In this document: positions 4,092 to 25,360 of the stretch, piece by piece | Layout of the letters: each line of letters begins with the position of its first letter | Position numbering within the stretch: the first letter of the stretch is position 1 | Assembly (NCBI RefSeq): GCF_006151785.1 | Contig: NZ_VDDD01000024.1 | Location: 1-33,537 of the forward strand | Length of the DNA: 33,537 nucleotides | Direction: 5' to 3' | DNA from: Paracoccus marcusii | Lineage (GTDB): Bacteria; Pseudomonadota; Alphaproteobacteria; Rhodobacterales; Rhodobacteraceae | Notes under the pieces: generated by a model | Told to the model about the DNA's origin: nothing | What the model saw: only the letters and a program-made list of their open reading frames with translations | The model's database searches: none | Program-made: the position numbers and the translations under genes

Positions 4092-5372
4092 TCAATCCGC
4101 CTTCTGCGGGCGACCGGCGACATAGGTCTGGGCCACCGCGCGGTCGTCGCCCATGATCTGCAGGACAAACAGCTCCTGGGCGAGGGTCTCAGCCTTTTCC
4201 ATCCGCAACGCCATGGCGGGGGTGGCACGGGCGTCGAGGACCACCAGGTCGGCGGCGCTGCCGGGGGCCAGGGTGCCGATCTCGGCCTCCATGCCCAGGG
4301 TCAGCGCGTTGCCGCGCGTGGCCCAGTGGAACGCCGCCAGCGGATGCAGCTTCTGCCCGCGCATCTGCAGGATCTTGTAGCCCTCAGCCAGGGTCTGCAG
4401 CATCGACCAGCTTGTGCCGCCGCCCACATCCGTCGCGATGCCGCTGACGATGCCCGCGGCGCGCAGCCCGTCGGCGTCGAACAGCCCCGACCCCAGGAAC
4501 AGGTTCGAGGTCGGGCAGAACACCGCATGGCTGCCGCTTTCTGCCATCCGGGCGATTTCGCGGGGTTCCAGATGGATAGAATGGCCCAGCAGCAGCTTGT
4601 CGGACAGCAGGCCGTAGCCCTCGTAGATGTCCAGATAGTCGCGCGCCTTGGGATAGAGCGACAGGGTGTATTCGATTTCGTCGACGTTTTCCGACAGATG
4701 CGTCTGCACGTGGCAGTCGGGATGGGCGCGGGCCAGCGCGCCGGCCGCTTCCATCTGTTCGGGGGAGGACGTGATCGCAAAGCGCGGCGTGATCGCATAG
4801 CGCTGCCGGCCCTTGCCGTGCCACTCCTGGATCAGCGCGGCGCTGTCGTCATGGCCCTGCTGCGGCGTGTCCAGCACGGCGGCCGGCGCATTGCGGTCCA
4901 TCATCACCTTGCCCGCGATCATGGCCATGTCGCGATCATGGGCGGCAGAGAACAGCGCCTCGGCGCTGGCCTTGTGGCTGGAGCAGAAGGCAACGGCGGT
5001 CGTCGTGCCATGCGCGGTCAGCTGGTCCAGAAACAGCCCCGCCATGCGGGTGGCATGCGCGGGGTCGGCGAATTCCGCCTCGGCCGGGAAGGTATAGGTG
5101 TTCAGCCAGTCCAGCAGCTGCGCACCCCAGCTGGCAATGACCTGCAACTGGGGAAAATGGATATGCGGGTCGATGAATCCCGCCAGGATCAGATGCGGGC
5201 GGTGGTCGATCTCCTCCAACCCGTCGCGGGTCAGTTCGGCATGATCGCCGACGGCGACGATGCGCCCGTCATCGACCAGGATGGCCCCGTCTTCCCAGAA
5301 GCGATGATTGTCGGCCGTGTCCTGGGGATCGGCATGAAAGTCGAGGACGCGGCCCCGGATCAGCTGTTGCAT
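4092..5372 (-). CDS. guaD: Guanine deaminase
   Basis: Converts guanine to xanthine and ammonia in the cytoplasm, feeding xanthine dehydrogenase. The 426-residue protein is of normal length for the amidohydrolase-superfamily guanine deaminases. Visible motifs are the zinc-ligand pair HxH at H70 and H72 (GFIDPHIHFPQLQ), the HLSENVDEI region, GHSIHLEPRE, and the ATDVGGGTSWSM segment holding the last metal-site aspartate. The start MQQLIRGRVLD at 5372 fits the family; longer in-frame extensions are the shadow of xdhC. The first 13 bases overlap the 3' end of xdhC in another frame, so it is the last gene of the xdhA-xdhB-xdhC-guaD operon and probably depends on translation of xdhC. Confidence 0.96.
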   Translation of the reverse strand: MQQLIRGRVLDFHADPQDTADNHRFWEDGAILVDDGRIVAVGDHAELTRDGLEEIDHRPHLILAGFIDPHIHFPQLQVIASWGAQLLDWLNTYTFPAEAEFADPAHATRMAGLFLDQLTAHGTTTAVAFCSSHKASAEALFSAAHDRDMAMIAGKVMMDRNAPAAVLDTPQQGHDDSAALIQEWHGKGRQRYAITPRFAITSSPEQMEAAGALARAHPDCHVQTHLSENVDEIEYTLSLYPKARDYLDIYEGYGLLSDKLLLGHSIHLEPREIARMAESGSHAVFCPTSNLFLGSGLFDADGLRAAGIVSGIATDVGGGTSWSMLQTLAEGYKILQMRGQKLHPLAAFHWATRGNALTLGMEAEIGTLAPGSAADLVVLDARATPAMALRMEKAETLAQELFVLQIMGDDRAVAQTYVAGRPQKAD

Positions 5373-6091
5373 GGGTATTTTTTCAAAGAAGAAGAGGTGA
5401 GGCGCGCCATCAGTTCGGCGGCGGTGAAGGCGGCGATGATTTCGGGGCGCTTGTCGCGCGAGAAGCCCGCCCCGATGGGACAGGTCAGGCCTGCGGCGTC
5501 GATCCCGCGCGAGGCGGCGAAGCGTTCGAACTGGGCCCGCTTGGTGGCGCTGCCGATCATCCCGACATAGGCCAGGTCGGTGCGGGCAAGCGCCTCGGCC
5601 GCCAGCAGGAAATCCAGTGCGTGATCGTGGGTCACGATCACCACGGACGTGCCGGGCCGGGCTGCGCGGATCTGCGCCTCCGGCAAGGGGGTCAGCAGGG
5701 TCGGGCCGCTGGCCTGCGCCAGCTCCTCCGGCCGGCTGTCGATCAGCAGGGCGTTGACAGGCAGCGGTTCCAGCGCCCGGGCCAGGGCGCGCCCGACATG
5801 GCCCGCGCCAAAGATCAGCGCGTCGGCGTGATCCTGCGGCGCGGGGCCGTGGCGGTCCAGCGTCAGCACCACCCGCCCGCCGCAGCACTGGCCAATCTGG
5901 GGGCCCAACGGCACGTCCATGATGGCATCGGCCTCGTCCCGCGCCAGCATCTGCCGCGCGCGGTCGATCGCCATGTATTCCAGCTGTCCACCGCCGATGG
6001 TGCCGGTGACCCGGTCGGGGGTCACGAACATCTCGGCCCCCGCCTCTCGCGGGGTCGAGCCCAGGGCCCGGGTGACGCGGACGCGGATCAT
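5360..6091 (-). CDS. xdhC: Xanthine dehydrogenase accessory protein XdhC
   Basis: XdhC binds molybdenum cofactor, supports its sulfuration and inserts it into the XdhB subunit. The 243-residue protein has the N-terminal XdhC/CoxI domain (TRALGSTPREAGAEMFV, GTIGGGQLEY, GQCCGGRVVLT) and a C-terminal Rossmann domain (ALIFGAGHVGRALA, VIVTHDHALD, YVGMIGSATKRAQF, CPIGAGFSRDKRPEIIAAF). The start ATG overlaps the xdhB stop as ATGA. Compared with typical XdhC proteins the N-terminus looks some 15 residues short, because the sequence begins directly at the first beta-strand (MIRVRVTRA). No better upstream start was seen, as that frame runs antisense-free inside xdhB and gives alanine/arginine-rich sequence. 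Its 3' end overlaps guaD by 13 bases. Confidence 0.94.
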   Translation of the reverse strand: MIRVRVTRALGSTPREAGAEMFVTPDRVTGTIGGGQLEYMAIDRARQMLARDEADAIMDVPLGPQIGQCCGGRVVLTLDRHGPAPQDHADALIFGAGHVGRALARALEPLPVNALLIDSRPEELAQASGPTLLTPLPEAQIRAARPGTSVVIVTHDHALDFLLAAEALARTDLAYVGMIGSATKRAQFERFAASRGIDAAGLTCPIGAGFSRDKRPEIIAAFTAAELMARLTSSSLKKYPCNS

Positions 6092-8397
6092 CCGCGCAGC
6101 CGCTCGACCGCCATCAGCACGCGTTCGGGCGTGGCGGGCGCATCCAGACGCGCGGGCGTGCGATAGTCGGCGACCGAGGCCACGGCCATGTTGATCGCCT
6201 CGAACACGCTGATGCCCAGGACGAAGGGCGGTTCTCCGACGGCCTTGGACCGCTTGATGGTCCGCTCGCTGGCCTCGGACCAGTCGGCCAGCGCGACGTT
6301 GAAGATGCGCGGGCTGTCGCTGGCAAGGGGCACTTTGTAGGTCGACGGCGCATGGGTGCGCAGGCGGCCCTTGGCATCCCACCACAATTCCTCGGTCGTC
6401 AGCCAGCCGGCACCCTGGACGAACGCGCCCTCGACCTGACCGCGATCCAGCACCGGGTTCAGGCTGCGGCCCACGTCGTGCAGGACGTCGGCGCGGTCGA
6501 TGACGTATTCGCCGGTCAGCGTGTCCACCGACACCTCGGCCACCGCGGCGCCATAGGCGAAATAGTAGAACGGCCGCCCCTGCCCCGTCGTCCGGTCCCA
6601 GTGGATCTTGGGCGTCTTGTAGAAGCCTGCCGCAGACAGCTGGATGCGCGCCATGTAGGCCGCGCGGATCACCTGGGCAAAGGGGATCATCTGATCGCCA
6701 GCCCGTACGTGACCCGGCACGAAGGCCACTTGGTCGGGGGCGACCTGCCATTTTTCGGCCACGAAGGTCACTAGGCGCGCCTTGATCTGTTCCGCCGCAT
6801 CCAGCGCCGCCATGCCGTTCAGGTCGGTCCCCGAGGACGCCGCCGTGGCCGAGGTGTTCGGCACCTTTTCCGTGGTGGTCTTGGTGATCTTGATGCGGCT
6901 CAGGTCACACTGGAACGCCTCGGCGACCACCTGGGCCACCTTGGTGTTCAGACCCTGCCCCATCTCGGTCCCGCCGTGATTCAGGTGGATCGAGCCGTCG
7001 GAATAGACATGGATCAGCGCCCCTGCCTGGTTGAACCAGGTCGCGGTGAAGCTGATGCCGAACTTGACCGGGGTCAGCGCGATGCCCTTGCGGATCACCC
7101 CACCCTTGGCGTTCCAGTCCAGCACTGCCTGCCTGCGGGCGTGATAATCGCTGCTGGCCTCCAGCTCATCGAAGATGCGCGGCAGGATCTGGTCCTGCAC
7201 CGTCTGGTGATAGGGCGTCAGCTGGCCGTTCTGGTACAGGTTGCGCTTGCGTACCTCCAGCGGGTCCATGCCCAAGGCATAGGCGATCTCCTCGACCATG
7301 CGTTCGGCCACGATGGCGCCCTGGGGGCCGCCGAAGCCGCGAAAGGCGGTGTTGCTGACGGTGTTCGTCTTCATCGGGTGGCTGCTGATGCGGACGTCCG
7401 GATAGAAATAGGCGTTGTCGGCGTGAAACAGCGCCCGGTCCGTCACCGGCCCCGACAGGTCCGCCGAAAATCCGCAGCGGGCATAGAAATCGCCCTCCAC
7501 CGACCGGATGCGGCCGTCATCGTCAAAGCCCACGGCGTAATCCACCACGAAATCGTGCCGCTTGCCCGTGGCGATCATGTCGTCGTCCCGGTCGGGGCGG
7601 ATCTTGACCGTCCGGTTCCAGCGCTTGGCCGCGACGGCCGCGACGCAGGCGAACAGGTTCATCTGCGTTTCCTTGCCGCCGAAACCGCCGCCCATGCGCC
7701 GCACGTTCACCACAACCGCGTTGCTGGGCACCCCCAGGACGTGGGCCACCATGTGCTGCACCTCGGACGGGTGCTGGGTCGAGACGTGCAGAACGACCTC
7801 GTCATCCTCGCCCGGCACGGCCATCGCGATCTGGCCCTCCAGATAGAAATGGTCCTGCCCGCCGATGGCAAAGCGACCCTCGATCCGGCGCGGCGCGGCG
7901 GCCATCGCCGCAGGCGCATCGCCGCGCTTGAGGGTCAGGGGGTCGGTCACATAGCCCATGCCCGCGTCGCGCGCCGCGATCGGGTCCAGCGCGTGGGGCA
8001 GCACGTCATAGTCGATCCGCGCCTTGTGCGCCGCGCGGCGCGCCTGGTCGCGCGTTTCGGCGATGACCGCAAAGACCGGCTGGCCCCAGAACTGCACCAC
8101 GCCTTCGGCAAAGATCGGGTCGTCGTTCTTGCCGTTGGGCGACACGTCGTTGACGCCCGGCAGGTCGGCCGCCGTCAGGATGCCCAGCACGCCCGGCTGC
8201 GCCAGCGTGTCGGTGAAATCCATGCCCGTGATGCGGCCATGGGCGCAGGACGACAGGCCCAGATAGGCGTGGATCGTGCCGGTGGGCTCGACCAGATCGT
8301 CGGTGTATTCGGCACGGCCGGTGACATGCTTGGCGGCGCTGTCATGGGCGGTGTCCTGATGGGCCTGGCCCGTGATGGTCGCGGTGTCGTCCTTCAT
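6088..8397 (-). CDS. xdhB: Xanthine dehydrogenase, molybdopterin-binding subunit
   Basis: Large subunit of the heterotetrameric bacterial xanthine dehydrogenase; it holds the molybdenum cofactor where hypoxanthine and xanthine are hydroxylated to urate. The 769-residue protein starts MKDDTATITGQ, enters the aldehyde-oxidase/xanthine-dehydrogenase a/b hammerhead domain (KHVTGRAEYTDD), and then shows the cofactor-binding motifs RRMGGGFGGKETQ, NTAFRGFGGPQG and ATAASSGTDLNGMAA. The catalytic glutamate is visible as E722 in AVGEPPFVLG, matching the GEPP loop of xanthine dehydrogenases. It follows xdhA by 3 bases with an AAGGAG ribosome site inside xdhA, and is followed by xdhC with an ATGA overlap. 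Confidence 0.97.
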   Translation of the reverse strand: MKDDTATITGQAHQDTAHDSAAKHVTGRAEYTDDLVEPTGTIHAYLGLSSCAHGRITGMDFTDTLAQPGVLGILTAADLPGVNDVSPNGKNDDPIFAEGVVQFWGQPVFAVIAETRDQARRAAHKARIDYDVLPHALDPIAARDAGMGYVTDPLTLKRGDAPAAMAAAPRRIEGRFAIGGQDHFYLEGQIAMAVPGEDDEVVLHVSTQHPSEVQHMVAHVLGVPSNAVVVNVRRMGGGFGGKETQMNLFACVAAVAAKRWNRTVKIRPDRDDDMIATGKRHDFVVDYAVGFDDDGRIRSVEGDFYARCGFSADLSGPVTDRALFHADNAYFYPDVRISSHPMKTNTVSNTAFRGFGGPQGAIVAERMVEEIAYALGMDPLEVRKRNLYQNGQLTPYHQTVQDQILPRIFDELEASSDYHARRQAVLDWNAKGGVIRKGIALTPVKFGISFTATWFNQAGALIHVYSDGSIHLNHGGTEMGQGLNTKVAQVVAEAFQCDLSRIKITKTTTEKVPNTSATAASSGTDLNGMAALDAAEQIKARLVTFVAEKWQVAPDQVAFVPGHVRAGDQMIPFAQVIRAAYMARIQLSAAGFYKTPKIHWDRTTGQGRPFYYFAYGAAVAEVSVDTLTGEYVIDRADVLHDVGRSLNPVLDRGQVEGAFVQGAGWLTTEELWWDAKGRLRTHAPSTYKVPLASDSPRIFNVALADWSEASERTIKRSKAVGEPPFVLGISVFEAINMAVASVADYRTPARLDAPATPERVLMAVERLRG

Positions 8398-8400
8398 GGC

Positions 8401-9849
8401 CTAGACTCCTTCGCTCTGGCGCAGCCGCACGGGCAGGCCGGGTTCGGATTGCTCCAGCCAGAACCGCCGGATCAGGTTGCGTGCGACGGTCGCGCGGTAT
8501 TCCGCGCTGGCGCGCATGTCGGACAGCGGCTGGAAATCCTCCGCGATCGCGCGGGCGGCGGCATCGAAGCTTGCCGCCGCGAAGGGCTGCCCCTGCAGCG
8601 CGGCCTCGGCACGGCGGGCGCGCTTGGGCGTTCCGGCCATGCCGCCGAAGGCCAGCCGCGCACGGGTGATCATGCCGTCCGCAACGTCGATGCAGAACCC
8701 CGCCGCGACAGAGGTGATATCGCTGTCGCGCCGCTTGCTGACCTTGTAGGCCGCGATGCGCGCTTGGGGCTGCATGGGGATCAGGACCTCCTCGACGAAC
8801 TCGCCTTGCTGGCGGTCCTGCTTGCCGTAGTCGATGAAGAAATCCTCCAGCGGCAGTTCGCGGCGCGTGTCGCCCCGACGCAGGACGATCCGCGCGTCCA
8901 GCGCGATCAGCAAGGGCGGCGTATCCCCGATCGGAGAGCCGTTGGCGATGTTCGCCCCGATGGTGCCGGCATTGCGCACCTGCCAGCCGCCGATGCGCGA
9001 CCAGTACTCGGCGGCCTGCGGAACATGGCGGGCGATCAGGGGCGCGGCCTCGCTGTAGGTCACGCCGGCACCCAGGCGGATCATGCCGTCCTCGACCGTG
9101 ATGTCCTTCATCAGGTGACCGATGAAGATGGCCGGGCTGATGTCGCGCATGAACTTCGTGACCCACAACCCGACATCGGTGGCGCCCGCGACCAGCGTCG
9201 CCTTGGGTTCGTCCAGCAACAGCTGGGCCAGATCGTCGGTATCGGCGGGGACCAGTGCCCGGTCCGCTCCGCGCGCAAGTGAAACCCGTGCGCCACGCAT
9301 CCCGGCCAGGCGCGCGGCCACCGCGTCGCGTTCGCGGGACAGCGCGTCCTGGGCCTGCCCTCCGGCCGCGCCCGCGGCCAAGGCCGCGCGGATGATCGGC
9401 GCATAGCCCGTGCAGCGGCAGATGTTGCCCTGCAGCGCGGTCTCGATCTCGGCGGCATCGGCATCGGGATTGGTCATCCATAGCCCGTAGAGCGCCATCA
9501 CGATGCCCGGCGTGCAGAAGCCGCACTGGCTGCCGTGATGGTCGACCATCGCGGCCTGGACCGGGTGCAGACCGCCATCGGGGCCGCGCAGATGCTCGAT
9601 CGTAACGATATGGGTGGCATGGCACGAGGCCAGCAGCCGGATGCAGGCGTTCACCGGCTCATAGACCAGCCCTGCGGCGGTCAGGCGTCCCGCAAGCACC
9701 GTGCAGGCGCCGCAATCGCCCTCGGCGCAGCCCTCCTTGGTGCCGGTCATCCGGCGCGCAAGGCGCAGATGATCCAGCAGCGTGTCCGAAGCGCCGACCT
9801 CTGTCAGGGCGATCTCGGTGTCGTTCAGAAGAAACCGCAGCTGGGTCAT
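8401..9849 (-). CDS. xdhA: Xanthine dehydrogenase small subunit (2Fe-2S and FAD)
   Basis: The electron-transfer subunit of xanthine dehydrogenase, passing electrons from the Mo site through two 2Fe-2S clusters to FAD and NAD+. The 482-residue protein has a plant-ferredoxin-like domain with cysteines C41, C46, C49 and C69 (KEGCAEGDCGACTV), a second helical 2Fe-2S domain with C109, C112, C144 and C146 (SQCGFCTPG, NICRCTGYAP), then the FAD-binding domain (VAGATDVGLWV, GTIGANIANGSPIGD) and a CO-dehydrogenase-flavoprotein C-terminal domain. It opens the xdhABC-guaD operon. Its ATG has an AAGGAAAGG ribosome site. A candidate operator (9921-9945) and a small palindrome (9866-9876) lie upstream. Confidence 0.97.
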   Translation of the reverse strand: MTQLRFLLNDTEIALTEVGASDTLLDHLRLARRMTGTKEGCAEGDCGACTVLAGRLTAAGLVYEPVNACIRLLASCHATHIVTIEHLRGPDGGLHPVQAAMVDHHGSQCGFCTPGIVMALYGLWMTNPDADAAEIETALQGNICRCTGYAPIIRAALAAGAAGGQAQDALSRERDAVAARLAGMRGARVSLARGADRALVPADTDDLAQLLLDEPKATLVAGATDVGLWVTKFMRDISPAIFIGHLMKDITVEDGMIRLGAGVTYSEAAPLIARHVPQAAEYWSRIGGWQVRNAGTIGANIANGSPIGDTPPLLIALDARIVLRRGDTRRELPLEDFFIDYGKQDRQQGEFVEEVLIPMQPQARIAAYKVSKRRDSDITSVAAGFCIDVADGMITRARLAFGGMAGTPKRARRAEAALQGQPFAAASFDAAARAIAEDFQPLSDMRASAEYRATVARNLIRRFWLEQSEPGLPVRLRQSEGV

Positions 9850-9920: not shown

Positions 9921-9945
9921 GACTTTACACGTTCCGTTGAAAGCG
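9921..9945. promoter_or_regulatory. Candidate purine-regulon operator upstream of xdhA
   Basis: Arms GACTTTACA (9921-9929) and TTGAAAGCG (9937-9945) are separated by 7 bases. The spacing equals that of the perfect 9-7-9 inverted repeat in the azgA/puuE divergent region (15803-15827). The left arm agrees with that repeat at 6 of 9 positions and the right arm at 7 of 9; the CTTT and AAAG cores are kept in both. It lies about 72 bases upstream of the xdhA start. Regulation by the same factor is an inference from this shared layout. Confidence 0.4.
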
Positions 9946-10046
9946 GGCCACCGTCACATGGCGTCAGGCGCGAAAGCCGCGCCATCTGCGACAATCTTCG
10001 GCAGCCATTTCCAGCGGTGGCCGGACCTCGCCGGGGGCGCAGAAAG

Positions 10047-10081
10047 GCGCGGCGGCCCCCCATCGAGGGGGACCGCCGCGC
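10047..10081 (-). terminator. Probable terminator of the permease-uraH-puuD operon
   Basis: A strong GC-rich stem-loop with outer arms GCGCGGCGG (10047-10055) and CCGCCGCGC (10073-10081), one mismatch, then a further 5-base-pair stem around the loop ATCGA. On the minus strand it is followed by CTTTCT, a short pyrimidine run. It sits about 65 bases past the puuD stop and separates this operon from xdhA. Confidence 0.6.
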
Positions 10082-10145
10082 CCGGGGGACTGCGCCCCCG
10101 TGTCCCGCCGTTGCGCGGGCCGTTGTCGTTCAGCGAGGGACGGTC

Positions 10146-11399
10146 CTACAGGCCCGCGACCCCCAGGGGTCCGACCTCGCGGAACCAGCGCAGGATCGCG
10201 TCGCGTTCGGCGTCCTCCATCCCGGTGATGTTCGCAGGGGGCATCGCGTCGGTCAGTCCCGCCTGGACATAGACCTGATGCGCGGCGCGGGCGATGTCGG
10301 CGGGCGTCTCCAGCAGGACGCCCTTGGGCGCGGTGCGGATGCCGTCCCAGACCGGTTCGCGCGCATGGCACATCGAACAGCGGCCGATGACGGCCTGGCT
10401 GGCATCCTCGAACCCATCGGCCTCGGCGAAGCGCGTCTCGACCGGGGTCAGGGGCCGAGCCATCGCCTCGTCATAGCTGTCCTGGTTCACGCCGATCGAC
10501 GCCAGCCACATCACCCCGATGAACAGCATCGTCGTGACCGCCCAGGTCCACCACTGGTATCCCTTGCGGGCGTGCATGGTGTTGAAGAAGTGCCGGATGG
10601 TCACACCCATCAGGAAGATCAGCGCCGCGATCAACCAGTTGTACTGGCTGGCGAAGGCCAGCGGGTAGTGGTTCGACAGCATCAGGAAGATGACCGGCAG
10701 CGTCAGGTAGTTGTTGTGCGTCGACCGCAGCTTGGCGATCTTGCCGTATTTCGGGTCGGCGGGGCGCCCGGCCTTCAGGTCGGCGACCACGATGCGCTGG
10801 TTCGGCATGATGATCAGGAACACGTTCGCGGTCATGATCGTCGCGGTGAAGGCGCCCAGATGCAGCAGCGCCGCGCGGCCCGTGAAGATCTGGTCATAGG
10901 CCCAGCCCATCGCCACCAGCGCCGCGAACAGCAGCAGCATCAGTACCGTGGGACGGTTGCCCAGGGGCGACTTGCACAGCCCGTCATAGATCAGCCAGCC
11001 CACCGCCAGCGACCCGCCCGAAATCAGGATCGCCTGCCAGATCGCCAGGTCGGCCTTGGCCGGCTCGATCAGGTACAGGTTGGCGCCGGCCCAATAGGTG
11101 ACCATCAGCAGCGCGGCCCCAGACAGCCAGGTCGCATAGCTTTCCCATTTGAACCAGGTCAGATGCTCGGGCATGCGCTCGGGCGCGACCAGGTACTTGC
11201 GGATGTGATAGAACCCCCCGCCGTGGACCTGCCATTCCTCGCCATGCGCGCCCTTGGGAAGGTCGGGTGCCTTCTGCAGGCCCAGGTCCAGCGCGATGAA
11301 GTAGAACGACGACCCGATCCACGCGATGGCGGTGATCACGTGCAGCCAGCGGACGGCAAAGGAGAGGAACTCCCACAGGATGGCGATTTCCGGGATCAT
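10146..11399 (-). CDS. puuD: Membrane urate hydroxylase PuuD with C-terminal cytochrome c domain
   Basis: Oxidises urate to 5-hydroxyisourate at the inner membrane, giving electrons to a c-type heme rather than to O2 as soluble uricase does. The 417-residue protein has an N-terminal integral-membrane domain with about eight hydrophobic segments (for example WLHVITAIAWIGSSFYFIA, then several up to about residue 305) and conserved HGGGFYHI and KLRSTHNNYLTLP stretches. The C-terminal part is a small cytochrome c domain with the heme motif CSMCH at C341-H345 and a likely axial methionine in DAMPPANIT. It begins 1 base after uraH, whose product acts on the next intermediate. The symbol puuD is also used for an unrelated putrescine-pathway gene. 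Confidence 0.95.
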   Translation of the reverse strand: MIPEIAILWEFLSFAVRWLHVITAIAWIGSSFYFIALDLGLQKAPDLPKGAHGEEWQVHGGGFYHIRKYLVAPERMPEHLTWFKWESYATWLSGAALLMVTYWAGANLYLIEPAKADLAIWQAILISGGSLAVGWLIYDGLCKSPLGNRPTVLMLLLFAALVAMGWAYDQIFTGRAALLHLGAFTATIMTANVFLIIMPNQRIVVADLKAGRPADPKYGKIAKLRSTHNNYLTLPVIFLMLSNHYPLAFASQYNWLIAALIFLMGVTIRHFFNTMHARKGYQWWTWAVTTMLFIGVMWLASIGVNQDSYDEAMARPLTPVETRFAEADGFEDASQAVIGRCSMCHAREPVWDGIRTAPKGVLLETPADIARAAHQVYVQAGLTDAMPPANITGMEDAERDAILRWFREVGPLGVAGL

Positions 11400-11400
11400 C

Positions 11401-11751
11401 TCAGCTGCCCCGATAGGTGGAATAGCCGAACGGAGAGACCAGCAGCGGCACGTGGTAATGGTCGTTCTGCGACATGCCGAAGCGGATCGGGATCACGTCC
11501 AGAAAGCGGGGGCTTTCGGGCGCCACGCCCGACGCGTCCATCCAGGCGCCGGCGTGGAATTCCAGCTCGTAGGTGCCGGTGGCGAAATCGCCCGCCGGCA
11601 GGATATGCGCATCGGTGCGCCCGTCGTCATTGGTCACCATGCGCGCGATCTCCTCGCGCGCGGGCGACAGCCGGAACAGCACCACCTGCATCCCGCGCGC
11701 GGGCAGCCCGCGCGCCGTGTCCAGAACATGCGTTGTCAGAAAACCCGACAT
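11401..11751 (-). CDS. uraH: 5-hydroxyisourate hydrolase
   Basis: Hydrolyses 5-hydroxyisourate, the product of PuuD, to OHCU (2-oxo-4-hydroxy-4-carboxy-5-ureidoimidazoline). The 116-residue protein is the transthyretin-like fold: N-terminal TTHVLDTARG with the active-site histidine, a middle RTDAHIL segment, and the diagnostic C-terminal YRGS. The start MSGFLTTHVLD was chosen because it matches the family N-terminus and has a GGGGGGA ribosome site about 5 bases upstream; an in-frame ATG at 11826 would add 25 unlikely residues. The gene follows the purine permease by 107 bases and precedes puuD by 1 base. Confidence 0.95.
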   Translation of the reverse strand: MSGFLTTHVLDTARGLPARGMQVVLFRLSPAREEIARMVTNDDGRTDAHILPAGDFATGTYELEFHAGAWMDASGVAPESPRFLDVIPIRFGMSQNDHYHVPLLVSPFGYSTYRGS

Positions 11752-11858
11752 GAAATCCCCCCGTCTTGATGGTTCCTGCGCCGTGATACCCGATTTGCCC
11801 AAGGGCGGCAGGGGCTTGATGGACAAGGCAGTCTTAAGAAACCGTGCATAATCGACCC

Positions 11859-13337
11859 TCAGTGATCGGCCAGCCGACCGGCCTCGGCCAGTTCAGCCTC
11901 GTCCGCGGGGGCTGCACCGTTGTAGAACCAGTTCAGCGCCACCGCGCTGACCGCGGCCAGCAGGATGCCCGAATGGATCAGCGGATGGATCGCATGGGGC
12001 AGCCACTGCTTGAAGTTCGGGGCGACCAGCGGGATCATCGCCATGCCGATGCTGATGGCCACGACGAACAGATTGTGGCGGTTGGCGGTGAAATCGACAC
12101 GGCTCAGGATGCGGATGCCGGTGGCGGCGACCATCCCGAACATCACCAGCCCGGCCCCGCCCAGGACGGTGGTCGGCAGGCTTTCGACCAGGGCGCCCAT
12201 CTTGGGGATCAGGCCCAGCACGATCATGATGATGCCGCCCGCCACGCAGACGAACCGCGACCGGATGCCCGTGACCCCCACCAGCCCGACGTTCTGCGAG
12301 AACGAGGTATAGGGGAAGGTGTTGAAGATGCCGCCCAGCATCGTGCCCAGACCGTCGGCACGCAGGCCCGCGGCCAGGCCGCGCGAATTGATCGGACGGC
12401 GGCACATATCCGACAGCGCCAGGAACATGCCCGTCGATTCGATCATCACCACGATCATCACCAGGACCATCGTGACGATCATCACCGGGTCAAAGGTCGG
12501 CAGGCCGAAATGGAAAGGCTTGATGACGGCGAACCAGGCGGCCTCTCCGACCTTGTCGAACTGCATCAGCCCCATCGCCGCCGCAGCGACGCCGCCCACG
12601 GCGATGCCCAGCAGCACGGCGATGTTGGCCATGAAGCCGCGGGCGAACCGCGACACCAGCAGGATCGTGCCCAGCACCAGCACCGCGATCAGGATGTTCG
12701 TCCCCGAAGCATAGGCGGGGTTCGGCATGGCGGGCGCCAGGCGCAGCCCCTCGGGCACGCCGCCCGCGGCGATGGCGCCGTCCAGCCAGGCCTGCTGCGC
12801 GGGATCGACAAGCATCGGCGCGGTCGGACCGACCGGCAGGCCGAAGATCCAGTTGATCCCGATGGGCATCAGGCTGATGCCGATGGCCAGGATGACCGTG
12901 CCGGTGACGACGGGCGGAAAGAACCGCAGGACCCGCCCGATCAACGGCGCCAGCAGGATGGCGATGAGGCCCGCCGCGATGATCGCCCCGAACAGCGCGC
13001 GCGCCCCGTCGGTGCCCGGCGTCTGGCCCGCGATGGCGACCATCGGCCCAACGGCCGCAAAGGTCACGCCCATCATCACCGGCAGGCGGATGCCGAAATA
13101 CTGGGTCATGCCCAGGCTTTGGATCAGGGTCGCCAGTCCGCAGACGAACAGGTCGGCCGAGATCAGGAAGGCCACCTCCTCGGGCGGCAGCTGCAGGGCG
13201 CGGCCCACGATCAGCGGCACCGCGATGGCGCCCGCATACATGACCAGCACGTGCTGGAACCCCAGCGTGATCAATCGCCCCGTGGGCAGCATCTGGTCGA
13301 CGGGATGGACCTGGGTCCGGGAAAGGCTGTCTGTCAT
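11859..13337 (-). CDS. NCS2-family urate/xanthine permease
   Basis: A nucleobase:cation symporter-2 (NAT/NCS2) protein of 492 residues with about 12-14 membrane segments, expected to bring urate and/or xanthine across the inner membrane by proton symport. The NAT signature is visible as SQNVGLVGVTGIRSR (Q-N-x-G-x4-T-G), and the segment ESTGMFLALSDMCRRP matches the conserved TM8 glutamate region. The start MTDSLSRTQVHPVD has an AAGGGGAG ribosome site 8 bases upstream. It leads the operon with uraH and puuD, which supports urate as a substrate (UacT/PucK-like); xanthine cannot be excluded from sequence alone. It is divergent from the IclR-family regulator gene. Confidence 0.92.
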   Translation of the reverse strand: MTDSLSRTQVHPVDQMLPTGRLITLGFQHVLVMYAGAIAVPLIVGRALQLPPEEVAFLISADLFVCGLATLIQSLGMTQYFGIRLPVMMGVTFAAVGPMVAIAGQTPGTDGARALFGAIIAAGLIAILLAPLIGRVLRFFPPVVTGTVILAIGISLMPIGINWIFGLPVGPTAPMLVDPAQQAWLDGAIAAGGVPEGLRLAPAMPNPAYASGTNILIAVLVLGTILLVSRFARGFMANIAVLLGIAVGGVAAAAMGLMQFDKVGEAAWFAVIKPFHFGLPTFDPVMIVTMVLVMIVVMIESTGMFLALSDMCRRPINSRGLAAGLRADGLGTMLGGIFNTFPYTSFSQNVGLVGVTGIRSRFVCVAGGIIMIVLGLIPKMGALVESLPTTVLGGAGLVMFGMVAATGIRILSRVDFTANRHNLFVVAISIGMAMIPLVAPNFKQWLPHAIHPLIHSGILLAAVSAVALNWFYNGAAPADEAELAEAGRLADH

Positions 13338-13518
13338 GGCGGGCTCCCCTTCTGATGTCGCGTCGTGGTTGCGCGACTGACCCAGACCTAGCTTGGCCCG
13401 TCATTTTCCCGAAACGGATTTTCAGGGCGACGTCGGCACCCTACCCCCGGCTGCCCGAAATCCCGGCACCGAATCCGCCCCTGCCCAGCCCGTGCCGGGA
13501 ACCCGCGGCGACCGAAAA

Positions 13519-13533
13519 TGGAAATGTTTTCTA
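13519..13533. promoter_or_regulatory. IclR-type palindrome upstream of the IclR regulator gene
   Basis: The 15-base sequence TGGAAATGTTTTCTA matches the classical IclR operator TGGAAATNATTTCCA, as I recall it, at all but two of the defined positions. It lies 73 bases upstream of the regulator start, in the region shared with the divergent urate permease operon. This fits autoregulation and control of the permease operon. The consensus is from memory and the site is not tested. Confidence 0.45.
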
Positions 13534-13605
13534 AGCGTTGGCTTTTTGGCTTGCGAGGCGTCATTTTCGCCCGCATCTAAAGGCAGCATTAACAAGGGAC
13601 GCATA

Positions 13606-14406
13606 ATGGCCGACCCGACCCGTAAGCGGGGGCGCCCCCGCAAGACCCTGCCCGACGCGCCGGGCACCGTGCAGTCGCTGGACCGGGCGCTGGACCTTCT
13701 GGACCTGCTGGCGGCCCATCCCGGCCTGACCTTGTCCGAGGTGGCGGACCGATCGGCGCAGCCGCCCTCGACCGTGCACCGGGTGCTGCACACGCTGGCC
13801 GCGCGCGGCATGGCCGAAAGCGACCCCGCGACGCAGGCCTGGAACATCGGGCCGCAGGCGTTCCGCCTGGGGTCGGCCTTCATGCGCCGGTCGGGCCTTG
13901 TGGAACGCGCCCGCCCGATCATGCGCGCGCTGATGGAACATACCGGCGAGACCGCGAACCTGGGCATCTTGCAGGGCGACAGCGTGCTGTTCCTGTCCCA
14001 GGTCGAGACCTCCGAGACGATCCGCGCGTTCTTCCCCCCCGGCACCCGGTCGCCCCTGCATGCATCGGGGATCGGCAAGGCGCTGCTGGCGTTCCGGCCC
14101 GACAGCGTCGCGGCACTGGGTCCCCTGGCGCGGTTCACCGACACAACGCTGACCGACCCCGCGGCGCTGGAGGCGGACCTGGCCCGCATCCGGCACCGCG
14201 GCTTTTCCTTCGACGACGAGGAACGCAGCCGGGGCATGCGCTGCATCGCGGCCCCCGTCTTCGATCTGTCCGGAGAGGCGATCGCCGGGATCAGCGTCAG
14301 CGGCCCCACGCACCGCATCGGGGCCGAATACGTCAAGACCCTGGGCGCGGTGGTGGCCGCCGCGGCGGCCAACCTGTCCGATGCCCTGGGCGGCCCGACC
14401 CGCTGA
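13606..14406 (+). CDS. IclR-family transcriptional regulator, probable purine-catabolism regulator
   Basis: A 266-residue IclR-family DNA-binding protein. The N-terminus RKRGRPRK is basic and AT-hook-like; residues about 20-85 form the winged helix-turn-helix (SLDRALDLLDLLAAHPG, LTLSEVADRSAQPPSTVHRVL), and the rest is the effector-binding domain (TGETANLGIL, PLHASGIGKALLA, RGMRCIAAPVFD, AGISVSGP). It resembles the AllR/BhcR group, in which glyoxylate or allantoin-pathway metabolites are sensed; glyoxylate is the end product of this pathway, so such an effector is plausible but inferred. The start ATG at 13606 follows AAGGGACGC. The gene sits between the urate-permease operon and the azgA gene, facing azgA tail to tail. 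Confidence 0.92.
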   Translation: MADPTRKRGRPRKTLPDAPGTVQSLDRALDLLDLLAAHPGLTLSEVADRSAQPPSTVHRVLHTLAARGMAESDPATQAWNIGPQAFRLGSAFMRRSGLVERARPIMRALMEHTGETANLGILQGDSVLFLSQVETSETIRAFFPPGTRSPLHASGIGKALLAFRPDSVAALGPLARFTDTTLTDPAALEADLARIRHRGFSFDDEERSRGMRCIAAPVFDLSGEAIAGISVSGPTHRIGAEYVKTLGAVVAAAAANLSDALGGPTR

Positions 14407-14417
14407 CCGGGGGTCAG
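14403..14417. repeat. Short palindrome holding both stop codons of the convergent genes
   Basis: CTGACC (14403-14408), GGG, GGTCAG (14412-14417) is a perfect inverted repeat. The TGA of the IclR gene (plus) and the TGA of the azgA-like gene (minus) each lie within one arm, and the coding regions are only 7 bases apart. A 6-base-pair stem without a T-run is weak as a terminator, but it would be symmetrical for both transcripts. Confidence 0.35.
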
Positions 14418-15715
14418 TGCGCGCCGAACAGCGCGAACTTTGCCACGAACAGGGCCGCGATGATCCAGGTTGCGGCATGCACCTCGCGCGCGCGGCCGGT
14501 CAGCAGCTTGATCACGGCATAGCTGATGAAGCCGAAGGCCAGGCCGTTGGCGATGGAATAGGTCAGCGGCATGGCGATGGCGGTCAGCACCGAAGGCGCG
14601 GCCTCGGTCACGTCGTCCCAGCTGACCTCGGCCAGCTCGCGCACCATCAGCGTCGCGACATACAGAAGCGCCGGCGCGGTCGCATAGGCGGGCACCGACC
14701 CGGCCAGCGGCGCAAAGAACATCGCGGCCAGGAACAGCAGGCCCACGACCACCGTGGTCAGGCCGGTCCGGCCCCCCGCCTGCACGCCTGACGCGCTCTC
14801 CACATAGGCGGTCGTCGAGGACGTGCCCAGCAGCGCACCGGCCGTGATCGCGGTCGAATCCGCCATCAGCGCACGGCCCAGGTTCTTGTTCTTGTGGGTC
14901 GGCCCCTCGGTCAGCAGGCCTGCGCGCTTGGCCACGCCGATCAGCGTGCCGGTGGCGTCGAAGACCTCGACCAGGACCATGACCAGAACGACCTGGAAGA
15001 TGCCGAAGGTCAGCGCGCCCATCAGGTCCATCTGCAGGAAGGTCGGCGCGATCGACGGCGGCATGGACATGACGCCCGAAAACTGGCTTACGCCAAGAAC
15101 GATCGCCGCGACTGTCACCACCAGGATGCCGATCAGGATCGCCCCCGTGACGCGCAGCGCATCCAGCGTCACGATCAGGAAGAACCCGCAGATCGTCAGC
15201 AGCGTGCCCGTGGCGGTCAGATCGCCCAGCGCGACCAGCGTCGCGGGGTTGCCCACCACGATGCCCGACGACTGCAGCGCAATGATCGCCAGGAACAGCC
15301 CGATGCCCGCCGCGATGGCGCTGCGCATCGACGCGGGGATGCCCGCGATCAGCCAGCGCCGGATGCCCGTCAGCGACAGGAACAGGAAGATCATCCCGCT
15401 GATGAACACCGCGCCCAGCGCCTGCTGCCAGGTAAAGCCCATGACGCCCACGACGGTGAAGGCGAAGAAGGCGTTCAGCCCCATGCCCGGCGCCATGCCG
15501 ATAGGCCAGTTGGCCCACATCCCCATGATCAGCGAGCCCAGCGCCGCGGCAAGGCAGGTCGCGACGAAGACCGCGTCGCGGTCCATGCCGGTTGTGGACA
15601 GGATGTCCGGATTGACGAAGATGATATATGCCATCGTCAGGAAGGTGGTGATCCCGGCGATCACCTCCGTCCTGACGCTGCTGCCTTTTTCGGCAAGTCC
15701 AAAATAGCGTTCCAT
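14414..15715 (-). CDS. AzgA-type NCS2 purine permease (guanine/hypoxanthine/adenine)
   Basis: A 433-residue inner-membrane purine:H+ symporter of the AzgA/PbuG branch of NCS2. Family landmarks: N-terminal RTEVIAGITTFLTMAYIIF with FVNPDIL, then GMAPGMGLNAFFAFTVV, VLVEVFDATGTLIGV, and GTSSTTAYVESASGVQAGGRTGL. The start MERYFGLAEKGSS has a GGGGG ribosome site 4 bases upstream; the longer in-frame form begins in the intergenic region and is not needed. It is divergent from the puuE-allE operon and convergent with the IclR gene. The location supports uptake of the purine bases that GuaD and XdhAB degrade. Which base is carried cannot be told apart from sequence. Confidence 0.93.
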   Translation of the reverse strand: MERYFGLAEKGSSVRTEVIAGITTFLTMAYIIFVNPDILSTTGMDRDAVFVATCLAAALGSLIMGMWANWPIGMAPGMGLNAFFAFTVVGVMGFTWQQALGAVFISGMIFLFLSLTGIRRWLIAGIPASMRSAIAAGIGLFLAIIALQSSGIVVGNPATLVALGDLTATGTLLTICGFFLIVTLDALRVTGAILIGILVVTVAAIVLGVSQFSGVMSMPPSIAPTFLQMDLMGALTFGIFQVVLVMVLVEVFDATGTLIGVAKRAGLLTEGPTHKNKNLGRALMADSTAITAGALLGTSSTTAYVESASGVQAGGRTGLTTVVVGLLFLAAMFFAPLAGSVPAYATAPALLYVATLMVRELAEVSWDDVTEAAPSVLTAIAMPLTYSIANGLAFGFISYAVIKLLTGRAREVHAATWIIAALFVAKFALFGAH

Positions 15716-15802
15716 GCGTCCCCCCTTGGCGGACCCCCCGTCCGCCGTTGGGCCGGACAGTGGGCGGCGCGGCCTCATGCCGCAATTGTCCCCGGCGCGT
15801 AA

Positions 15803-15827
15803 GTCTTTCAACGCGATTTTGAAAGAC
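15803..15827. promoter_or_regulatory. Perfect 9-7-9 inverted repeat in the azgA/puuE divergent promoter region
   Basis: GTCTTTCAA (15803-15811) and TTGAAAGAC (15819-15827) are perfect reverse complements separated by 7 bases. Each arm contains TTGAAA reading outward, which differs from the -35 hexamer TTGACA at one position, so a bound protein would cover a possible -35 box for both divergent operons. A degenerate relative with the same spacing lies upstream of xdhA (9921-9945). The binding protein is unknown; the neighbouring IclR regulator is one candidate, though the arms have the opposite polarity to the usual IclR site. Confidence 0.6.
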
Positions 15828-15933
15828 CCGACCATTGTCGCGCATTCCTTGATACAGAATTCCGCCCCTGACCGCTTGTCCTTACGCGGGAGCCGCGCTT
15901 TGCTGACGCAACGACAGGCACAAGGGGAGAGAG

Positions 15934-17340
15934 ATGCGCTACAGCCGAGACCTGACCGGATATGGCCGGACCACCCCCAATCCCCGCTGGCCGGGCGGTG
16001 CCCGCATCGCGGTCCAGATCGTCCTCAACTATGAGGAAGGCGGAGAGAACAGCATCGAGCATGGCGATCCCGCCTCGGAGGCGTTCCTGTCCGAGATCAT
16101 CGGCGCCCAGCCCTGGCCCGGCCAGCGGCACTGGAACATGGAATCGATCTATGACTATGGCGCGCGGTCGGGCTTCTGGCGGATGCACCGCATGCTTTGC
16201 GACCTGCCGATCACCGTCTATGGCGTCGCCACCGCGCTGGAGCGCAGCCCCGAACAGGTTGCCGCCATGCAGGAGGCCGGGTGGGAGATCGCGACCCATG
16301 GCCTGAAATGGATCGACTATCGCAACGTCCCGCGCGAGGTCGAGGCCGACCACATCGCCCAGGCCGTGGCCCTGCACACCGCCATCACCGGCGAACGCCC
16401 GCACGGTTTCTATCAGGGGCGCACGTCGATGAACACGGTGGCCTTGGGCTGCGAGGAAGGCGGGTTCGCCTATCTGGCCGACACCATCGCGGACGAACTG
16501 CCCTATTGGCACGTCCACAACGACCGGCCGCAGCTGATGGTGCCCTATACGATGGACGCCAATGACATGCGCTTTTCCAGCGGTCAGGGGTTCGGCACGG
16601 GAACTGATTTCTTCGACTATCTGCGCGACAGCTTCGACATCCTCTATGCCGAAGGGGCCGCCGGCGCGCCCAAGATGATGTCCATCGGCCTGCACTGCCG
16701 CCTGGCTGGGCGCCCCGGTCGGGCGATGGCGATCCAGCGGTTCCTGGAGCACGCCCGCAGCCATGAGGGCGTCTGGTTCGCCAGCCGCCTGGACATCGCC
16801 CGCCATTGGACGGCCGAACATCCGTTCCAGCGCCGCACGCGCCCGTCGCAGATGGACCGCGCCGCCTTTGTCGCACGGTTCGGCGGCGTCTATGAACATT
16901 CGCCCTTCATCGCCGAACGCGTCTGGGATGCCGAGATGGGTGCCGTCCACGACACGCCCGGCGGCCTTGCCGGACGCATGGCACAGATGTTCCGCGCGTC
17001 AGGCGACGACGAACGACTGGGCGTGCTGCGGGCCCACCCCGATCTGGCGGGCAAGCTGGCGCAGGCCAAGCGTCTGACCGCCGACAGCACCGCCGAACAG
17101 GCCAGCGCCGGTCTGGACGCGCTGACCGATGCGGAACGGGCCGAATTCACACGCCTGAACGACGCCTATGTCGCCAAGCACGGCTTTCCGTTCATCATCG
17201 CGGTTCGTGACCACGACAAGGCGGGCATCCTGTCCGCCATGCAGGCCCGCGTCGACAACGACACCGCCACCGAACGCGCCACAGCCGAGGCGCAGGTCAC
17301 CCGCATCGCCACCCTTCGCCTGAAAGAGATCCTGAAATGA
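15934..17340 (+). CDS. puuE: Bifunctional allantoinase PuuE / OHCU decarboxylase UraD
   Basis: A 468-residue fusion of two purine enzymes. Residues 1 to about 300 are the PuuE-type allantoinase, a polysaccharide-deacetylase-fold enzyme that hydrolyses allantoin to allantoate (YGRTTPNPRWPGGARIAVQ, NYEEGGENSI, GWEIATHGLKW, MMSIGLHCRL). Residues about 305-468 are OHCU decarboxylase, which makes S-allantoin from OHCU (RAAFVARFGGVYEHSPFIAE, LRAHPDLAGKLA with the catalytic histidine, HGFPFIIAV). The linker is only about 10 residues. The start has a GGGGAGAGAG ribosome site 1-5 bases upstream. It overlaps allE by 4 bases. The fusion joins two non-adjacent activities only by passing through free or channelled allantoin; UraH, which makes the UraD substrate, is encoded in the separate puuD operon. 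Confidence 0.95.
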   Translation: MRYSRDLTGYGRTTPNPRWPGGARIAVQIVLNYEEGGENSIEHGDPASEAFLSEIIGAQPWPGQRHWNMESIYDYGARSGFWRMHRMLCDLPITVYGVATALERSPEQVAAMQEAGWEIATHGLKWIDYRNVPREVEADHIAQAVALHTAITGERPHGFYQGRTSMNTVALGCEEGGFAYLADTIADELPYWHVHNDRPQLMVPYTMDANDMRFSSGQGFGTGTDFFDYLRDSFDILYAEGAAGAPKMMSIGLHCRLAGRPGRAMAIQRFLEHARSHEGVWFASRLDIARHWTAEHPFQRRTRPSQMDRAAFVARFGGVYEHSPFIAERVWDAEMGAVHDTPGGLAGRMAQMFRASGDDERLGVLRAHPDLAGKLAQAKRLTADSTAEQASAGLDALTDAERAEFTRLNDAYVAKHGFPFIIAVRDHDKAGILSAMQARVDNDTATERATAEAQVTRIATLRLKEILK

Positions 17341-18236
17341 CCCAGACCGGCCCCGCGGGCGCCCCCACCGGCGACATCGCCCAGCTTCCCACCGATGATG
17401 CCACCGCGCCGCGCATCCGCTATGCCGGCCCCGTGGCGGGCCTGCCGCCCCAGACGGGGATGACCACCGACACCGCCATCTTCACCGAGGCCTATGCCGT
17501 TATCCCCCGCACCGTGATGCGCGACATCGTCACCAGCTATCTGCCCGGCTGGCAGGGGATGCGGTTCTGGATGTTGGCCCGCCCGCTGACCGGATTTGCG
17601 GAAACCTTCAGCCAGTACATCGTCGAACTGGCCGAAGGCGGCGGCAGCGACACGCCTGACGACGACCCCGAGGTCCAGCACGCGATCTTCGTCACCGGCG
17701 GCGACATGCAGGTCGTGATCGACGGGACCGAGCATTTGCTGTCGCCGGGCGGCTTTGCCTATATCCCGGCTGGCACGCCGTGGCGGGTCCGGAACCGCAC
17801 CGCAGGCCCCGCGGGCTTTCACTGGTGGCGCAAGCGCTGGCAGCCCTTTGCCGGCACGGACAAGCCCGACCCTATCGTGGTGCAGGAACAAGACATCGCC
17901 CCGTCCATGATGCCCGACACGGACGGGGCATGGGGCACCACGCGCTTCATGGACCCGGCCGATCTGCGCCATGACATGCACATCACTGTCGTGACGTTCA
18001 AACCCGGCGGCTCGATCCCCTTCGCGGAAACGCACGTGATGGAACACGGCCTGTTCGTGCTGGAAGGAAAGGCCGTCTATCGCCTGAACCGGGACTGGGT
18101 CGAGGTAGGTCCGGGCGATTACATGTGGCTGCGCGCCTTCTGCCCGCAAGCCTGCTACGCCGGCGGTCCGGGGCCGTTCCGCTATCTGCTGTACAAGGAC
18201 GTGAACCGACACGCGACGCTGTGGCCGAACCGCTAA
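17337..18236 (+). CDS. allE: (S)-ureidoglycine aminohydrolase
   Basis: Hydrolyses (S)-ureidoglycine, formed by allantoate amidohydrolase, to (S)-ureidoglycolate and ammonia. The 299-residue protein is a bicupin: first cupin around residues 85-160 (HAIFVTGGDMQVVIDG, PGGFAYIPAGTPWRV) and second around 215-290 (PGGSIPFAETHVMEHGLFV, VGPGDYMWLRAFCPQACY). The Mn ligands are visible in the second cupin as E231, H233, H237 and Q271, the same spacing as E235, H237, H241 and Q275 of the plant enzyme. The start overlaps the puuE stop as ATGA. The enzyme making its substrate (AllC) is not in this window. Confidence 0.93.
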   Translation: MTQTGPAGAPTGDIAQLPTDDATAPRIRYAGPVAGLPPQTGMTTDTAIFTEAYAVIPRTVMRDIVTSYLPGWQGMRFWMLARPLTGFAETFSQYIVELAEGGGSDTPDDDPEVQHAIFVTGGDMQVVIDGTEHLLSPGGFAYIPAGTPWRVRNRTAGPAGFHWWRKRWQPFAGTDKPDPIVVQEQDIAPSMMPDTDGAWGTTRFMDPADLRHDMHITVVTFKPGGSIPFAETHVMEHGLFVLEGKAVYRLNRDWVEVGPGDYMWLRAFCPQACYAGGPGPFRYLLYKDVNRHATLWPNR

Positions 18237-25285: not shown

Positions 25286-25360
25286 TGGTGCCGGCTGAGG
25301 GATTTGAACCCCCGACCCCCTGATTACAAATCAGACGCTCTACCACTGAGCTAAGCCGGC
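25286..25360 (-). tRNA. tRNA-Thr (anticodon TGT), CCA encoded
   Basis: A complete cloverleaf on the minus strand. The acceptor stem GCCGGCT (5', 25354-25360) pairs with AGCCGGC (25290-25296), the discriminator is A, and a genomic CCA ends the gene at 25286. The D-arm reads AGCTCAGTGGTAGAGC, the anticodon loop TTTGTAA gives anticodon TGT, and the T-arm reads GGGGGTTCAAATCCCTC with the invariant TTCAAAT. It decodes ACA and, with modification, other ACN threonine codons. Confidence 0.97.

Follow-up and report, generated by a model that had tools for sequence, protein, structure and literature searches.

A conserved pair of candidate LysR-type operators at the purine genes of Paracoccus marcusii, whose genomes yielded no gene for the regulator

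The window analysed here (the whole stretch of DNA, 33,537 nucleotides from Paracoccus marcusii) carries a cluster of purine genes whose coordinates are collected in Table 1, and which also encodes an amidohydrolase, by reading a guanine deaminase. The urate oxidase, with its PF06181 match, is presumably of the PuuD type. The longer open reading frame of azgA, reaching to position 15835, would cross the palindrome described below; the true N-terminus of the protein looks like MERYFGLAEKG, beginning at 15715.

Table 1. Features of the window, with positions on the forward strand and the basis of each assignment.
Feature	Position	Strand	Basis or remark
xdhC, accessory protein	5360..6091	-	start by reading
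xdhB, xanthine dehydrogenase molybdopterin subunit	6088..8397	-	TIGR02965
xdhA, xanthine dehydrogenase small subunit	8401..9849	-	TIGR02963
xdhA operator (predicted), ACTTTACA-N7-TTGAAAGC	9922..9944	+	lysR/xdhA divergent operator in relatives
Stretch where relatives carry lysR, between site and uox (~200 bp)	9946..10145	.	
Urate oxidase (uox)	10146..11399	-	PF06181
hiuH, HIU hydrolase	11401..11826	-	ORF; true start probably shorter
Xanthine permease	11859..13337	-	TIGR03173
TGGAAATGTTTTCTA, candidate operator of local IclR/BhcR	13519..13533	+	unlike the palindrome
IclR-family gene, BhcR ortholog	13606..14406	+	NF045644
azgA, NCS2-type purine permease	14414..15715	-	gene name from the initial annotation; start by reading
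Primary operator (predicted), GTCTTTCAA-N7-TTGAAAGAC	15803..15827	.	intergenic azgA/puuE
Second conserved element; candidate secondary (activation) site and/or core promoter	15834..15861	+	conservation
puuE-uraD fusion (allantoinase + OHCU decarboxylase)	15934..17340	+	TIGR03212, TIGR03164
(S)-ureidoglycine aminohydrolase	17337..18236	+	
tRNA gene	25289-25360	minus	no other Rfam match in the window reaches gathering scores

The sequence at 15803-15827, between the divergent azgA and puuE genes, reads GTCTTTCAA CGCGATT TTGAAAGAC; its 9-base arms match perfectly across a 7-base spacer and TTGAAA reads outward on both sides, in agreement with the initial annotation. The palindrome centre lies ~100 bp from the azgA start codon and ~119 bp from that of puuE. 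The window is G+C-rich and has many nine-base inverted repeats (53 pairs no more than 12 bases apart, the 25 listed being mostly GC-rich), so that palindromicity alone proves little, and the weight of the case rests on the common pattern and its conservation and not on the palindrome itself. The degenerate relative proposed at 9921-9945, before xdhA, turned out to be exactly as described: it reads GACTTTACA CGTTCCG TTGAAAGCG and agrees with the azgA/puuE site at 6/9 and 7/9 arm bases.

A pattern composed from both sites after they had been seen, CTTT-N-(A/C)-A-N7-TTGAAAG, occurs without mismatch at only these two places in the 3.67-Mb genome. With up to two mismatches, CTTTNMAN7TTGAAAG gave four strand-hits, all at the two sites (shuffle mean 0.17, maximum 2), and with one mismatch allowed it stood barely above its reversed control (5 versus 3 strand-hits in G000, one of the two genomes of the species). 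Both genomes, G000 and G263, hold the perfect pattern at just the two sites, and in 12 hand-picked Paracoccus genomes all 21 perfect places (18 verified on fetched loci and 3 by coordinates) fall at azgA/puuE or beside xdhA or lysR. An extra perfect place in a genome from outside the genus (G145, locus L303) was considered as a sign of a wider regulon; no purine protein matched there, and it was taken as chance.

Upstream regions of puuE were compared at 81 loci, with one further locus (L051) left out because its upstream DNA was too short. At least 13 of the 16 arm bases are present in 16 of the 81 regions, whereas shuffled versions (20 per region) never exceeded 12, and the arms are thus kept in orthologous regions far above the shuffled level; the other 65 loci lack a strong site. 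The distance between the site and puuE is 86-116 bp in Paracoccus (mostly 102-116 bp), and in other genera the stronger sites stand 55-61 bp ahead of puuE, in most cases with hiuH divergent. The spacer sequence is free: over 47 Paracoccus sequences, selected for matching 12 or more of 14 arm bases, a choice that inflates the arm value, the arms hold 2.02 bits per base against 0.46 in the spacer and 0.40 in the upstream flank. A score matrix derived from puuE sites only (18 of the 81 best puuE hits, picked by eye for recognisable arms) recovers the xdhA site of the window; given this training set, puuE counts are partly circular and lysR counts are out of sample. The proposal of a protein-binding operator of the purine pathway shared by two intergenic regions is supported, the site being conserved in relatives and the xdhA copy a true relative.

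About 30 bp from the palindrome, on the puuE side, lies a second conserved element, which takes the form GATCTTTGYCGATTCGTTGATACAGAATT in relatives and includes a CTTT-N9-TTGATA arrangement. It holds 1.01 bits per base between 28 and 58 bases from the site start in the 47 sequences picked for good arms, of which 31 have TTGATA-like bases at exactly +45 and 9 have them at +44. The element persists in relatives that lack the palindrome (G262, G245 and G209, for example), and this weaker conserved element resembles, we infer, the activation site of LysR-type transcriptional regulators (LTTRs). A scan of 15716-15933 found no sigma-70-like promoter pair, and the conserved TTGATACAG block is too distant from TTGAAA to serve as its -10; the suggestion that TTGAAA provides a -35 box for both operons, which a bound protein would block, is accordingly not supported. 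A scan of the azgA/puuE intergenic region for terminator-like sites likewise found none.

In Paracoccus sp. C2R09 (L020) and Roseovarius autotrophicus (L062), where a LysR-family gene diverges from xdhA, the matrix also finds a site between the two genes; in R. autotrophicus ACTTTCAACGGTCTGTTGAAAGT stands between lysR and xdhA. The C2R09 protein carries PF00126 (HTH_1) at its N-terminus and PF03466 (LysR_substrate) at its C-terminus, both above gathering scores. It was used as the query at E 1e-60, the LysR of another locus (L006) having proved too distant, and matched a LysR-family gene in 103 of 121 Paracoccus genomes, three of them (G156, G178 and G255) at only 51-53%. In each of the best 30 of these 103 lysR loci the site precedes lysR by 10-12 bp, and in 28 of them xdhA lies divergent on the opposite side, which places the candidate site between regulator and target; of the two exceptions, one locus (L118) ends before xdhA and the other (L120) has other genes there. 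Forty of the remaining 73 loci were scored as well, the other 33 being left out of the count: 32 reach at least 13, and 8 have, by reading, a diverged AGTTTA..GAAA form at the same place. Outside the genus, the palindrome occurs at hiuH/puuE in two genomes (G145 and G100), in which the LysR gene adjoins hiuH. P. versutus-like genomes have a puuE site that has drifted (e.g. AGTTTCAATGAGATATTTATAAA) and a lysR site reading ACTTTCAGCGATTCCTTGAAAGA; the two sites thus differ in evolutionary rate. No description of such a regulator, and nothing usable on a named purine or xdh LysR regulator, was found in the open-licence PMC papers searched, PMC5343134 among them.

Neither genome of the window species contains a match to the LysR of relatives above 35% identity; the top LysR matches within the genome itself reach 33-35% identity, and the three paralogs chosen for alignment have other recognition helices. 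The gene order xdhA-site-lysR-uox of relatives such as L117 and L127 is replaced in the window by xdhA-site-uox, an arrangement shared by G263, which is 98.3% identical to G000 over 15.5 kb. The right part of the stretch between site and uox resembles DNA found just downstream of lysR in two relatives (L104 and L108). Within the same interval, at ~10030-10110, there is a G+C-rich inverted repeat, a partial copy of which occurs on contig C243. The initial annotation had considered the local IclR protein or one encoded elsewhere as the regulator, and it overlooked that the regulator gene is absent from the place where relatives carry it. The closest puuE genes are those of Paracoccus sp. PAMC 22219 (best segment 92%) and of P. 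lichenicola and P. homiensis (87%). PAMC 22219 has lysR on another contig, and its xdhA contig stops right beside the xdhA site; the neighbours of its lysR and the associated operator are bhc genes and another IclR gene in place of xdhA, as would be expected if lysR had been relocated or duplicated. Because this close relative still has a lysR, the loss in the window species appears to be recent.

The IclR-family gene next to the palindrome reaches 397.9 bits against NF045644 (cut-off 350). Upstream regions of iclR carry, by reading, TG(G/A)AAA-N3-TTTyCA (e.g. TGGAAA-N3-TTTCCA) or a close form in 14 of the 16 listed, matches starting after residue 15 having been left out, and the 9-7-9 palindrome differs from this palindrome of the relatives. 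In five loci of other Rhodobacterales (L049, L051, L052, L057 and L076) iclR is preceded by an A/T-rich palindrome resembling TTTTTGAAAACGTTTTTCAAAAA, of which L051 has a shorter form. By reading, bhc genes adjoin iclR in L012 and L049. Such genes are absent from 13338-13605 of the window, where the xanthine permease gene still has bhcR and the candidate BhcR operator as neighbours, and a search of both whole genomes of the species gave no match to BhcC.

Co-occurrence was counted in 109 Paracoccus genomes (120 puuE regions minus eleven), of which 38 lack a strong site at puuE. The puuE site is present in 71 of the 84 genomes with BhcR (at least 60% identity) and in 0 of the 25 without it (Fisher 1.9e-15), as against 67 of the 92 with LysR and 4 of the 17 without (Fisher 1.8e-4), both counts being confounded by descent and gene order. 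Two of the four site-bearing LysR-negative genomes belong to the window species and the other two are 71% complete. Eleven of the 40 further lysR loci come from genomes that lack a close BhcR, and there the lysR site is itself weak (only 3 score at least 13, the best 15.3), suggesting that site form, BhcR and gene order track the same clades. Outside the genus, G145 and G100 likewise possess a BhcR relative (53 and 58%), situated about 10 kb away. If anything, co-occurrence favours BhcR over LysR. The motif at each regulator's own promoter favours LysR, as lysR has the 9-7-9 motif and iclR a distinct palindrome.

We consider it likely that both sites are primary operators, with a T-N13-A core, of an unnamed purine LysR regulator that has been lost here, leaving the sites orphaned. 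In relatives the regulator gene diverges from xdhA, and only 10-12 bp separate the start of lysR from the second copy of the site; bound LysR may repress its own gene and, upon sensing a pathway metabolite, may activate the divergent catabolic operon. At azgA/puuE the same site lies between two divergent operons, the second element ~30 bp toward puuE possibly serving for activation; inducer, sign of regulation and binding as a tetramer are all postulated. A dedicated repressor had been proposed at first; the layout in relatives would fit an activator of the LysR family whose own gene is subject to its repression. In the window species, where lysR appears to have gone from between the operator and uox, the purine genes may be uninducible through the LysR route or under other control.

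Several observations sit uneasily with an orphaned LysR operator pair: the tighter co-occurrence with BhcR, the weak lysR site where BhcR is not close, the puuE regions without a strong site (38/109 in Paracoccus and 65/81 loci), many of them in genomes with lysR, a core that is T-N13-A and not the commoner T-N11-A, and the retention of both sites in a species without lysR. The palindrome could instead be an operator of the local IclR protein, BhcR, linking purine breakdown to its end product glyoxylate; the initial annotation had named this protein as one possible repressor. The iclR gene adjoins the palindrome, its co-occurrence with the puuE site is the tightest found, the site survives in the window species with BhcR and without LysR, and, according to PMC11323563, binding by BhcR of P. 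denitrificans responds to glyoxylate. This assignment has nevertheless become the less supported one, and we hold it to be unlikely, since a different palindrome precedes iclR (in the window at 13519-13533) and in relatives the 9-7-9 motif stands at the lysR promoter. The lysR motif, mostly diverged (2 of 7 at 13 or more), is moreover found in seven fetched genomes without any BhcR match, and six genomes with both regulators (G209, G262, G245, G243, G172 and G154) lack the puuE palindrome, an absence equally awkward for LysR. The related notion that the operators are no relics at all, and that BhcR or some other regulator not orthologous to LysR continues to use them, the regulon having changed its master protein and kept the operator sequence, we likewise regard as doubtful.

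A takeover of both operators by a different LTTR or some other factor after the loss of LysR would explain why both sites are intact in G000 and G263, when the other 12 examined LysR-negative genomes (at least 86% complete) all lack the puuE site; many of those 12 have a different gene order at puuE. The loss looks recent, however, and together with the near identity of G000 and G263 this means that retention of the sites needs no selection; the own-genome LysR matches are, besides, remote and differ in recognition helix where aligned, and we judge such a takeover quite improbable. A chance palindrome or an RNA element deserves hardly any credence. Although nine-base inverted repeats are not rare in the window, the conservation in orthologous regions is far above that of shuffles, and all 21 perfect places lie in the two purine promoters or at lysR. 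The arms of the second copy, at xdhA, do not pair, which makes an RNA hairpin unlikely. An RNA element or riboswitch was also sought directly in Rfam and rejected, as no match at gathering scores fell on the sites.

We regard the two sites as a real, conserved pair of operators of apparent LTTR type belonging to a purine regulon, although searches of this species turned up no gene for the regulator. On this reading Rhodobacterales should possess a LysR regulon for purine breakdown that has not been described so far, with a defined operator and with xdhABC, azgA and puuE as predicted targets, to which hiuH is added in other genera. Loss of a regulator with its operators intact would offer a natural case for following how fast a regulon decays or is rewired.

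Among the closest known systems is that of BhcR in Paracoccus denitrificans (IclR family), the gene adjoining the palindrome being its ortholog; it differs in that the candidate operator is TGGAAA-N3-TTTCCA-like, not 9-7-9, and that BhcC has no match in this genome. By protein, the LysR of relatives points to the CrgA/YafC/TtdR/AaeR branch: its best solved-structure match is 3hhg, which we take to be CrgA, and the NCBIfam models that fit it best are YafC, TtdR, an unnamed LysR model and AaeR. As all 25 listed NCBIfam matches fall below the curated cut-offs, it is none of these named regulators. The lack of a regulator gene in the window species sets the present system apart from classical LTTRs, as does the presence of another divergent promoter region, azgA/puuE, at a distance from the regulator gene. 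The core here is C-N11-G / T-N13-A and not the T-N11-A of LTTR operators, within a palindrome that does have the 7-bp spacing; T-n12-A and T-n13-A variants are reported in PMC12609908, and a T-n13-A site for IlvY in PMC4834489 and PMC12609908. As described in the same two papers, the palindrome bound by a classical LTTR is located near -65 and overlaps the regulator's own promoter; the protein thereby represses itself, and it activates the divergent operon through a secondary site. Like the classical regulators with paired recognition and activation sites (RBS/ABS; BenM, CbnR and IlvY), the present system has a primary site whose palindromic arms are 7 bp apart and, ~3 helical turns downstream, a second, weaker element as a candidate activation site; in relatives the primary site immediately precedes the regulator gene, with a divergent target on its other side. 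The lysR/xdhA layout of relatives fits this classical LTTR model.
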